Assembly (NCBI GenBank): GCA_018661505.1
Contig: JABJIE010000063.1
Location: forward strand, 1 to 64,000
Length of the DNA stretch: 64,000 nucleotides
Direction of reading: 5' to 3'
Source of the DNA: Lentimicrobiaceae bacterium
GTDB lineage: Bacteria; Bacteroidota; Bacteroidia; Bacteroidales; F082
Within the stretch, counting starts at the first letter, position 1; each line of letters opens with the position of its first letter. Below the pieces are notes generated by a model that worked only from the letters and a program-made list of their open reading frames with translations, was not told the origin of the DNA and ran no database searches. The position numbers were made by a program, and so were the translations under genes. This document shows, piece after piece, positions 44,912-48,304 of the stretch.

Positions 44912-47900
44912 ATGAAAAAAATATACCATATAATTATTGCCATTATACTTAGTATATCATCATTAATTGCTGCTGAAGGAGATACCATTGTAATTCAAAC
45001 AATAGATCATAATACTCCAACATTACCAGGATGGAATAGCCCTAGGTCAGGAACCTATGTTTTTCCACCTGCCACAGTAAGTTTTTCGAAAATACTCATG
45101 TCCTATAACCTTAAATGTGATCCCTCACAAAGTCCAGCATGCGGCGAATGGGATTATACTACACACACGAGAATATACGAAAAAACTGGTTTATTTGACT
45201 CAACATTATATTTCCACCCAAACTTTATTGTGAACAACATTACTCCTGATACTTTTATGATGATGACTTCACCATCCTTTAAGTACCTTCCAACACTTGA
45301 GTATATAAATCAGTCTACATCCACAAATACAGGCAATCCTGGGGATATGAGTAAATCCATAAATATTCCATTTACGGAAAGCACAAAGGATGGTAGAGCA
45401 CAATTCATTTATTCAAGTTCAGAGCTTTTAGCTTCTGGCTTGCAAGCCGGAGATATAACTGGTATCCAATTAGAATTAACAAGTGGTAGTTCTACACTAA
45501 AGCACTTTACAATTAGAGCCGCTCACTATTCCGAAGATGTGTTACCTCAATATACTTATGTTGAAGATGGTTTGGAGACTGTTTATTCAAGGAACACCTC
45601 TCTTGCCAATGGTAATAATGGAATTTCATTTTCTTTCCCTTTCTCATGGGATGGTGCCCAGAATATATTAATCGATGTTAGCTATGCAAATCACAGTGGA
45701 ACATCTGTTCTTATTGGAGACTCATCATCAGATGACAAATCAAATATTTCCGATGGACCTGACAATTACCTTGATTTTGGAGGTTGGGATTATGTTGATG
45801 TTCCCAAGGATGTATTTAATACCATAGATAGTGCTATTACAATTAGTTTCTGGCAGTATGGTGACCCTGCGATTCAACCCATAAACTCTTCAATATTTGA
45901 GGGTGTTGATAGTTTGGGCAGAAGAGTTTTGAATGCTCATTTACCATGGAGCAATGGTAAAGTATATTGGGATGCTGGTTTCGATGGTTATGAACGAATT
46001 TATCGTGCTGCTAGCGCAAATGAATATAAGGGTAAATGGAATTTCTGGACATTTCTTAAGGATTGCAGAACAGGTAGTATGCAAATACTATTAAATGGAG
46101 ATCTATGGTTTATTGGCAGTGGAAGAATTAAGCCTGTTGACAATGTTGATCAATTTAGAATTGGTTCGGCAATTGGCTATGACGGATATTACGATGGATA
46201 TATTGATGACTTTAGAATATGGGATACCGTTCTGAGCTGGGATGAAATAAAAAATTGGATGTACAAGGATATTACACCAGACCATCCCAATTATGATAAT
46301 CTAAGAGCTAACTATAGATTTAATGATGGATCAGGTTTTGAGGCATCAGACTCAAGTCCGAATGGATTTACCGGCTATCAATTTGGATATCCAGGATGGT
46401 TAGATTATAATGGACAATCTAGAATGAAAAATGCTAATGGTGATGATTCACGGTTACATTTAACATTTGAAAATGGTATTTATGATCCATTACTACTAGA
46501 CTCTCTTGTTGTTGTTGACACTATGGAGAATCCACCTCTTAATGTAGTTACATATAATCCTGACAATCCGCCTGTTCCCTCTGATACATTAACTCGTTGG
46601 GATGCATACTACAATAATTATTCGTATGATGCATCAGGAGTGGCAACAGACTCAAGCCTTGTGGTTCCGGATGAAACATTCTATAGAATTGATATGCCTT
46701 ATTATGGCGATCCATATGAAATACTAATTCCATGGGAGATTGCAAGATATATTACTCCCTATGGTAACGGTCTTTCACTGGGAGATGATGGCTGGACATG
46801 GACATTTGATGTTACAGATTATAGGCCTTTGTTGGTTGACTCCTTGCAAGTTACTGCTGGTAACTTTCAGGAGCTTCTTGATTTGGAGTTTCATATGATT
46901 GAAGGAACTCCATCACGTGAGGTTGTAAACATCGATAAACTTTATTCTGGATCCTTTTCTCTTAAGAATTTTGCTGAGAATGTAACACCAGATACAATTT
47001 CATTGGATCCTATGGCAGAAACATTCAAGGTAAAAACAAGAACCTCAGGACATCAATTTGACAACCCAACAAACTGTGCAGAATTTTGTTACAAAATTCA
47101 AAGTCTTGATGTTAATGGCCAAATGGTTGCAGATTGGCAGATAATGCAAGAATGTGCTAATAACCCACTCCATCCCCAAGGAGGAACATGGATATATGAC
47201 AGAGCAGGATGGTGCCCAGGTGCAAAAGTTACCGATCAGAACATAGAAATTACTCCCTATGTTACTTCGGATGTGGTAATTATTGATTACAATTCACAAT
47301 ACGACGAATACGGAAATTATCTGCTGGAAACTCATTTGATTTCATATGGCCAACTTAACTTTGAGTTAGACGCTAGTGTTGAAGAGGTTATTGCCCCAAA
47401 TAACGATAAGATTTATGGAAGATTTAATCCTTCCGCAGGTGCTCCCGAAATCATTATTGCTAATAATGGTAGTGAAACCCTTACAGATTTGAAAATTACT
47501 TATGGTCCCAATGGAAGTTCCAAAGAATATATGTGGAGTGGCAATCTTGAATTTGATCAGACGGAAAATGTAATCCTAGAGGAGTTTGATTGGGAAGAAT
47601 GGTTAGCTGGAGATGGTAACTTCACTGTGGAGGTTTCCAACCCAAATAACTCTAACGATGAAAATCCCATAAATAATACATATGAGACCAACTACAACCT
47701 TCCTGCTGTCTATCCATCCACAATTGTTATACATTTTAGGACAAACAAAGCAGGATACCAAAATAGTTGGGAGCTTAAATTAAATAATGACCAAGTAATA
47801 CTTGAACGCGATGGGTTTGATAATGAGACCTTATATGTAGATACAATTACATTTATGAATGGGTGTTTTAAATTCTATATGTATGATACCGGTCATAATG

Positions 47901-48304
47901 GGATTTCATTTTGGGCAAATAATCAAGGGAGTGGATTACTTAGATGGTATGATTTAGATGGTAATGTTCTCAAAGTGTTTAATGGAGATTTTGGAGACCA
48001 AATATATCATAGCTTTTATACTGATATGTTTCTTGATATTAAGAACAATACAAATAATACATTTGAATTTGAAATTATTCCAAATCCAAATAATGGAAAA
48101 TTCCATATTTCATTTAATGATATTATTGAAGATGATTATGATATCTCCGTATATAACTCAACTGGTCAGCAGATATACAATGATCAACTAAATAGAAGTT
48201 ATTCTGGTGGTTTATTGAACCTTGATCAATTATCACCTGGCATATATACATGTGTATTACAAGGGTCAAATGGGAGATCCGTGAAAAATTTTGTTATAAA
48301 TTAA
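44912..48304 (+). CDS. Secreted PNGase F-like protein with internal LamG-like domain and T9SS type A C-terminal sorting signal
   Basis: CGEWDYTTHTRIYEK (PNGase F D60 region), WEIARYITPYG...FDVTDY (second part of N-domain), NCAEFCYK...GGTWIYDRAGWCPGAKV (PNGase F C-domain), LamG-like FDGYERIYRAASANEYKGKWNFWTF...YDGYIDDFRIWDTVLS, C-term IPNPNNGKFHISF...YNSTGQQIYN...LSPGIYTCVLQGSNGRSVKNFVIN. Confidence 0.85.
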   Translation: MKKIYHIIIAIILSISSLIAAEGDTIVIQTIDHNTPTLPGWNSPRSGTYVFPPATVSFSKILMSYNLKCDPSQSPACGEWDYTTHTRIYEKTGLFDSTLYFHPNFIVNNITPDTFMMMTSPSFKYLPTLEYINQSTSTNTGNPGDMSKSINIPFTESTKDGRAQFIYSSSELLASGLQAGDITGIQLELTSGSSTLKHFTIRAAHYSEDVLPQYTYVEDGLETVYSRNTSLANGNNGISFSFPFSWDGAQNILIDVSYANHSGTSVLIGDSSSDDKSNISDGPDNYLDFGGWDYVDVPKDVFNTIDSAITISFWQYGDPAIQPINSSIFEGVDSLGRRVLNAHLPWSNGKVYWDAGFDGYERIYRAASANEYKGKWNFWTFLKDCRTGSMQILLNGDLWFIGSGRIKPVDNVDQFRIGSAIGYDGYYDGYIDDFRIWDTVLSWDEIKNWMYKDITPDHPNYDNLRANYRFNDGSGFEASDSSPNGFTGYQFGYPGWLDYNGQSRMKNANGDDSRLHLTFENGIYDPLLLDSLVVVDTMENPPLNVVTYNPDNPPVPSDTLTRWDAYYNNYSYDASGVATDSSLVVPDETFYRIDMPYYGDPYEILIPWEIARYITPYGNGLSLGDDGWTWTFDVTDYRPLLVDSLQVTAGNFQELLDLEFHMIEGTPSREVVNIDKLYSGSFSLKNFAENVTPDTISLDPMAETFKVKTRTSGHQFDNPTNCAEFCYKIQSLDVNGQMVADWQIMQECANNPLHPQGGTWIYDRAGWCPGAKVTDQNIEITPYVTSDVVIIDYNSQYDEYGNYLLETHLISYGQLNFELDASVEEVIAPNNDKIYGRFNPSAGAPEIIIANNGSETLTDLKITYGPNGSSKEYMWSGNLEFDQTENVILEEFDWEEWLAGDGNFTVEVSNPNNSNDENPINNTYETNYNLPAVYPSTIVIHFRTNKAGYQNSWELKLNNDQVILERDGFDNETLYVDTITFMNGCFKFYMYDTGHNGISFWANNQGSGLLRWYDLDGNVLKVFNGDFGDQIYHSFYTDMFLDIKNNTNNTFEFEIIPNPNNGKFHISFNDIIEDDYDISVYNSTGQQIYNDQLNRSYSGGLLNLDQLSPGIYTCVLQGSNGRSVKNFVIN

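Follow-up and report, generated by a model that had tools for sequence, protein, structure and literature searches.

A LamG-like domain nested in two layers within the catalytic jelly roll of a putative exported PNGase F-superfamily enzyme

Can the catalytic domain of a peptide:N-glycosidase (PNGase) be interrupted by some 500 residues and still be one domain of a working enzyme? The question arises from a single open reading frame (ORF) in a stretch of 64,000 nucleotides from a Lentimicrobiaceae bacterium (GenBank assembly GCA_018661505.1, contig JABJIE010000063.1, positions 1 to 64,000), here called the window; residue numbers refer to the 1130-aa translation of this ORF. PNGases are standard tools for N-glycan release. 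In our reading, the window protein is a PNGase that is exported, has a flexibly attached, plug-in module for glycan binding, nested in two layers, and would rely on the canonical Asp/Glu catalysis; we give this a probability of roughly 0.7. Sequence analysis establishes the nesting, the conservation of the catalytic residues, and the export signal. The architecture is conserved and apparently undescribed within a known enzyme superfamily, PF09112/PF09113, and its anatomy is well supported.

The 518-residue block as an insertion

A preliminary description of this DNA had proposed a PNGase F-like enzyme whose N-terminal domain is split by an insertion of about 500 residues carrying a LamG-like domain, in a cargo of the type IX secretion system (T9SS). 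Each of these elements is borne out by profile and structure-database searches. N-glycanase_C matches residues 687 to 787 (E 5.8e-11; 42.8 bits against a curated cut-off of 25), Laminin_G_3 matches residues 290 to 447 (E 2.6e-14; 54.1 bits against 27.6), and the sorting domain is recognized by both Por_Secre_tail (PF18962; residues 1055 to 1129; E 3.5e-12) and TIGR04183 (6.1e-10), both over cut-off. In a phmmer search of the PDB, PNGase F aligned in two separate pieces, with query residues 23 to 92 (4.9 bits) and 608 to 775/779 (~2e-9). The codons that the description assigned to Asp81 and Glu724 agree with ours (Table 1), as does the resumption of the second half, at residue 608/609 (46733/46736).

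The first of the two pieces is too weak to stand alone, and the split was tested through homologues. In an insert-free relative of 555 aa (L032), PNGase F aligns in one piece over residues 23 to 310 (E 1e-21). This protein and another insert-free relative (L018; 571 aa) are 37% identical to the window protein on both sides of the block and join residue ~90 to residue ~608; the first part of L032 aligns with window residues 23 to 90 and retains the Cys-CGEWDY region. In proteins of ~840 aa that we call group D, the PNGase domain is likewise uninterrupted and matches PNGase F with E 3e-24. Because the alignments of these uninterrupted homologues to PNGase F run through the site without a break, we conclude that the block is a true insertion in the hairpin after the Asp60 strand of the N-terminal jelly roll. 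The site corresponds to the PNGase F hairpin KNKTTGEW, between the post-Asp60 strand and the strand YEIGRFITPY. A sequencing or assembly artefact is ruled out, as dozens of independent assemblies contain the large insert.

A contiguous match to the Pfam N-domain model, which the preliminary description had named as an observation that would speak against a split, was absent: the Pfam search gave zero N-glycanase_N matches in the window protein. The same model stays below its cut-off of 22.4 in the insert-free relatives L018 (14.9) and L020 (21.8), so that, besides the split, it appears to fall short of this branch.

Two nested layers

Homologues came from even draws of phylum and class, plus near relatives, and were cut into profile segments; 113 proteins in which both N-domain halves were recognized could be classified by the gap between the halves. 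There was no gap (-13 to 11 aa) in 29 of them, a hairpin of 30 to 33 aa in 4, a small gap of 103 to 114 aa in 28, and a large gap of 500 to 532 aa in 52, with no overlap between classes. In the survey of homologues suggested in the preliminary description, an interruption as large as that of the window protein is thus present in 52 of 113; beyond that description, the insert has two layers, occurs widely, and may be present in one protein and absent from a close relative.

LamG lies inside the block in 52/52 large-insert proteins and 0/28 small-insert proteins. Profiles of the two ends of the large block were compared with the 28 small blocks: that of the right end (RIGHT) matches every one of them (E 1e-6 to 3e-16), and that of the left end matches 22 (best E 6e-13). 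Both profiles derive from large-insert proteins, and what they match in small-insert proteins is therefore independent. The segment after LamG is not present in small-insert proteins. Since both ends of the large insert share homology with the small insert, the alignments indicate two-level nesting: a beta-sandwich and LamG are inserted within an older element of ~112 aa, itself inserted within the catalytic domain.

The beta-rich domain that precedes LamG (INSa) has no second copy in the genome and accompanies LamG in 51 of the 52 large-insert proteins. By eye, the 30- to 33-aa hairpins (L208, L211, L205, and L228) retain two motifs of the small insert, its first (TGxxDS) and its last (WNV[FY]); judged by these motifs, they look like remnants, or partial deletions, of it.

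Active site and predicted specificity

For the active site, we compared the protein with a PNGase F reference sequence; it agrees with the PDB alignments where they overlap, and its residues 57, 60, 61, 118, 120, 191, 206, 248, and 251 carry the expected letters. The equivalent of Asp60, D81, is conserved in 91 of 92 homologues, the sole exception being a gap, and the equivalent of Glu206, E724, in all 92 (PNGase F itself excluded from both counts). Trp59 corresponds to W80. The equivalents of Arg248 and Trp251 are essentially invariant, the RxxWCPG region is invariant, and so are the disulphide cysteines and the WD motif. Given the conservation at the Asp60, Glu206, Arg248, and Trp251 positions, the catalytic machinery looks intact, and we think it quite probable that the protein is active as a PNGase. 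In zebrafish Ngly2, the homologous Asp/Glu pair is essential, as judged by mutation (PMC12753239). Common features of the superfamily are an aromatic-Asp-positive/aromatic motif and a His/Glu pair (PMC12381499); the window protein has Tyr82 at the Arg61 position and His714 at the Trp191 position.

The alignment shows no conservation of four PNGase F residues, Glu118, Trp120, Arg61, and Asp57. The Glu118-Thr-Trp120 loop is shortened to Ala649-Gly650-Asn651, so that, as the preliminary description had suspected, the residue at the Glu118 position is not Glu. The global alignment sets Ala649 opposite Glu118, with a one-residue ambiguity at the trimmed loop; Gly650 is invariant, and the AGN resembles the IGN of PNGF-II. 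Type II PNGases have Gly at the Glu118 position, which has been linked to tolerance of alpha-1,3-fucose (PMC9522356), and there is open space near C3 of the core N-acetylglucosamine (GlcNAc) in members acting on alpha-1,3-fucosylated glycans (PMC12381499). Because a residue other than Glu at this position is common in the superfamily and Gly occurs in characterized type II enzymes, the trimmed loop suggests altered core-sugar specificity, not altered chemistry. The earlier thought that catalysis itself might be altered is not supported: the Asp60 and Glu206 equivalents are kept. The Trp120 aromatic is lost also in the small-block sister clade (L186), and this shared loss would thus predate the LamG layer.

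The Glu or Asp found at position 118 in type I enzymes is replaced by A649/G650 in the window protein, and the N-terminal bowl-like domain that most group 2 members of type II have is absent, as the catalytic N-half starts straight after the leader. In a paralogous large-insert group (L011 to L015 and L035 to L038; 33 to 36% identity), the cysteines around the Glu206 equivalent are absent (GHGQQG-EF); the disulphide on the Glu206 side is therefore dispensable in that group.

Predicted structure

AlphaFold, run with 50 homologues, gave a mean predicted local distance difference test (pLDDT) score of 89.9 and a predicted template modelling score (pTM) of 0.58 for residues 22 to 1048, and 93.2 and 0.88 for the block alone (residues 91 to 608), pTM being no measure of flexibility. 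The block alone is thus modelled as a compact unit, within a less rigid whole, and such scores are what one would expect if it were a self-contained unit on a loose joint. Foldseek matched the model to the PNGase family (9lwg, 1png, 3ks7, and 4r4x) and to LamG/pentraxin-type folds, with zebrafish Ngly2 (9lwg) on top (E 1.6e-10). In the profile comparison with the PDB, the closest matches of the LamG domain are an S-layer domain protein, an extracellular arabinanase (at its LamG-like end), 4dqa, and pentraxins. Foldseek alignments to 4dqa and 1png, with a root mean square deviation of 16 to 20 A, were discarded as evidence of a common domain arrangement.

Spread and history

A scan of genome contigs returned at least 589 relatives. 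The best 80 of these come from metagenome-assembled genomes (MAGs), and nearly all of the 80 carry the large block; their labels are Bacteroidales, Flavobacteriales, Saprospiraceae, Crocinitomicaceae, Sphingobacteriales, Chlorobiota, and Ignavibacteria, with MAG names as deposited, of which some look wrong (for example, Chryseobacterium gleum). The large form is found in dozens of Bacteroidota species. N-glycanase_C was found in 66 of 393 genomes of the even phylum draw, where the large class made up 22 of 78 matches, and in 215 of 396 genomes of the even class draw.

On a tree of the PNGase core only, with the block excluded, all large-block proteins fall within one set of 28 rows (support 98/96), which also holds five insert-free and two small-block rows. 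The insert state changes repeatedly on this tree, even between sisters: L241 (none) pairs with L173 (large; support 100/97), and L204 (none) with L196 (small; support 100/99). For groups named before the tree was seen, approximately unbiased (AU) tests rejected a single clade of all large-insert proteins (p 5e-73) and a single clade of all small- and large-insert proteins (p 4e-4). We prefer one gain per layer followed by repeated clean losses, with exchange of the insert as the alternative history; branch counts cannot separate gain from loss. Taking the insert-free L018 and L032 as a simple ancestral state is unsafe, as both lie inside a clade dominated by the large form; they are still evidence that the two halves form one domain, despite that position.

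Among 50 large-block proteins, distances in the outer arms track those in the core (r 0.71), and those in LamG do so less (r 0.30). The LamG domains of L153/L149, L163, L164, L172, and L173 match the family profile weakly (E 1e-10 to 1e-19 versus 1e-49 or better elsewhere), which suggests that these copies are divergent or exchanged. The looser tracking of the core and these divergent copies leave room for exchange of LamG. One can envision, tentatively and with the odds somewhat against it, that the hairpin which follows the Asp60 strand serves as a docking socket, where modules have been layered and repeatedly lost or swapped in frame across Bacteroidota PNGases, tuning the glycoprotein targets of a common core; the window protein would be the two-layer form.

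Proposed function and alternative readings

We propose that the window protein, once exported by the T9SS, would cleave the GlcNAc-Asn bond of N-glycoproteins through the canonical Asp/Glu pair. The older hairpin extension of ~112 residues would be the outer layer, whose tip took in the beta-sandwich and LamG as the inner layer. The block may then act as an independently folding, flexibly hinged binding module, holding the enzyme on a substrate rich in glycans or glycoproteins. The trimmed Glu118-Trp120 loop could leave room around C3 of the core GlcNAc, such that N-glycans that are core alpha-1,3-fucosylated (of plant, algal, or invertebrate type) or truncated may be accepted. That LamG serves substrate binding is about an even bet.

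Three points weigh against this proposal. Glu418 has been proposed as a second acid that takes the role of Glu118 in type II enzymes, and no evident equivalent of Glu418 was found by eye in the alignment of the window protein. The gene is an orphan, and the neighborhood and synteny check found no glycan-utilization operon around it. Finally, a glycan ligand is guesswork, as proteins and calcium are also among the ligands of LamG domains.

The insert might instead be a neutral or purely structural spacer, a flexible decoration at a tolerant hairpin without binding function. Its coming and going between relatives, sister proteins included, implies that the core does not need it. However, the insert keeps a tight length (514 to 553 aa across 50 diverse large-insert proteins), and within its inner module the positions with Trp, Gly, His-Leu-Pro-Trp, and Asn-Gly are almost invariant. 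Both observations speak for selection acting on fold and surface, and we consider a mere spacer unlikely. Somewhat less probable still is that the fold was kept and the PNGase function lost, the protein then being a lectin or adhesin with a double jelly roll, or an amidase that acts on a different linkage. The four PNGase F residues that are not conserved here would fit such a loss, and many carriers are, by their record titles, environmental MAGs for which a diet of host glycoproteins is not obvious. Set against this are the invariant catalytic Asp, Glu, and RxxWCPG region; moreover, position 118 is also replaced in characterized active members (PMC9522356), and an aromatic or positive residue after Asp and His for Trp191 are found in active members too (PMC12381499, PMC12753239). 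That residues 23 to 90 are an unrelated look-alike, and the enzyme a simple N-to-C string of modules, can draw on the weak direct match to PNGase F and on the failure of Foldseek to bridge the insert in any one alignment, but it is contradicted by the insert-free relatives, which join the same two segments with 0 to 11 intervening residues and align with PNGase F in one piece, and by the invariant cysteines and WD motif, and we regard it as highly improbable.

Comparison with known systems

How, then, does a predicted T9SS-exported PNGase with a nested insert differ from its known relatives? PNGase F (type I, Elizabethkingia meningoseptica; 1pgs, 1pnf, and 3pms) shares the double-jelly-roll core, Asp60, Glu206, Arg248, Trp251, and the cysteines of the Asp60 loop. 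It differs in its insert-free KNKTTGEW hairpin, in lacking LamG and an extra C-terminal module, and in having Glu118, Trp120, and, where the window protein has His, Trp191. PNGF-II and group 2 type II enzymes (4r4x and 7zgn) have Gly for Glu118 in a loop (IGNYD) that the AGNFQ of the window protein resembles, and they share a beta-rich accessory module; however, that module is N-terminal (the bowl-like NBL), outside the catalytic domain, and sequence similarity is low. PNGaseL and PNGaseDo are likewise T9SS-exported, with accessory beta modules, mostly orphan genes, and open space at C3 of the core GlcNAc, whereas their accessory modules lie N- or C-terminal to the catalytic module (PMC12381499); the words insert, LamG, and lectin are not used in that paper. 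Zebrafish Ngly2 (9lwg) shares the PNGase domain and the Asp/Glu pair, but has protease-associated and thioredoxin-like domains before the PNGase domain and no LamG.

Group D proteins (L042, L030, and L034) have LamG, the PNGase fold, and a T9SS tail; unlike the window protein, they carry LamG at the N terminus and leave the PNGase N-domain uninterrupted. Seven proteins of this type, of ~840 aa (these three with L022, L023, L027, and L028), have a linear order and an Arg after the catalytic Asp. By their domain order, they represent another way of bringing these parts together.

The nested architecture is not in the curated NCBIfam library, nor was it found in the open-licence literature, although an earlier mention elsewhere is possible. 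Known accessory modules of the family flank the catalytic domain, whereas here the module is nested, in two layers, inside the catalytic jelly roll. Natural forms with no insert, with the outer layer only, and with both layers on a common core make it possible to test directly how the module affects activity and the choice of substrate. The trimmed core-sugar loop, for its part, predicts release of core alpha-1,3-fucosylated glycans, which are beyond the reach of PNGase F.

Domain coordinates, export, and genome context

Table 1. Features of the predicted PNGase F-superfamily protein, in window positions
Feature	Positions	Strand	Evidence or remark
Whole ORF, T9SS-exported PNGase F-superfamily protein with nested insert	44912..48304	+	single uninterrupted frame, 1130 aa
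Hydrophobic N-terminal leader, probable signal peptide, residues ~1-20	44912..44971	+	by reading the translation
PNGase N-domain, first half, residues 23-90	44978..45181	+	weak alone, strong via uninterrupted homologues
Asp81, catalytic Asp60 equivalent, motif W80-D81-Y82	45152..45154	+	invariant in alignments
Outer insert, left arm, residues ~91-140	45182..45331	+	homologous to small-insert left end
Inner insert, beta-rich domain INSa, residues ~143-285	45338..45766	+	profile segment, no Pfam model
Inner insert, LamG/pentraxin-like domain, residues 290-447	45779..46252	+	Pfam, PDB profile, and Foldseek matches
Inner insert, post-LamG segment, residues ~448-540 (approximate boundaries)	46253..46531	+	missing from small-insert proteins
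Outer insert, right arm, residues ~541-607	46532..46732	+	RIGHT profile matches small-insert proteins
PNGase N-domain, second half, residues 608-686, WEIARYITPYG...FDVTDYRPLL	46733..46969	+	PDB and homologue alignments
Ala649-Gly650-Asn651, trimmed loop at PNGase F Glu118-Trp120 position	46856..46864	+	alignment
PNGase C-domain, residues ~687-800, CAEFC and DRAGWCPG	46970..47311	+	Pfam N-glycanase_C
Glu724, catalytic Glu206 equivalent	47081..47083	+	invariant in alignments
C-terminal beta-rich module, residues ~803-1040	47318..48031	+	sequence matches in relatives, no Pfam model
T9SS type A sorting domain, residues 1055-1129	48074..48298	+	Pfam and TIGR04183

By its sorting domain, the window protein is a T9SS type A cargo; the genome encodes 89 such sorting tails (88 besides this one) and a SprA homologue. 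The Pfam search gave no match for INSa, the post-LamG segment, or the C-terminal module. The last of these matches many ORFs of ~550 to 600 aa in related genomes (L019, L021, and L026) and is probably a shared, unmodelled part of T9SS cargo.

The gene lies between a MoxR gene and a nitronate-monooxygenase-like gene (names assigned by reading), an arrangement kept only in the nearest genomes. GH92 mannosidase matches occur at four places in the genome, two of them at contig-end positions or in short frames, and there is one Asparaginase_2 gene; from this gene content, use of N-glycans by the organism is plausible. Upstream, at 39371-43703, three consecutive genes resembling SurA/PpiC-type periplasmic folding factors are followed by one for a MoxR-like ATPase.
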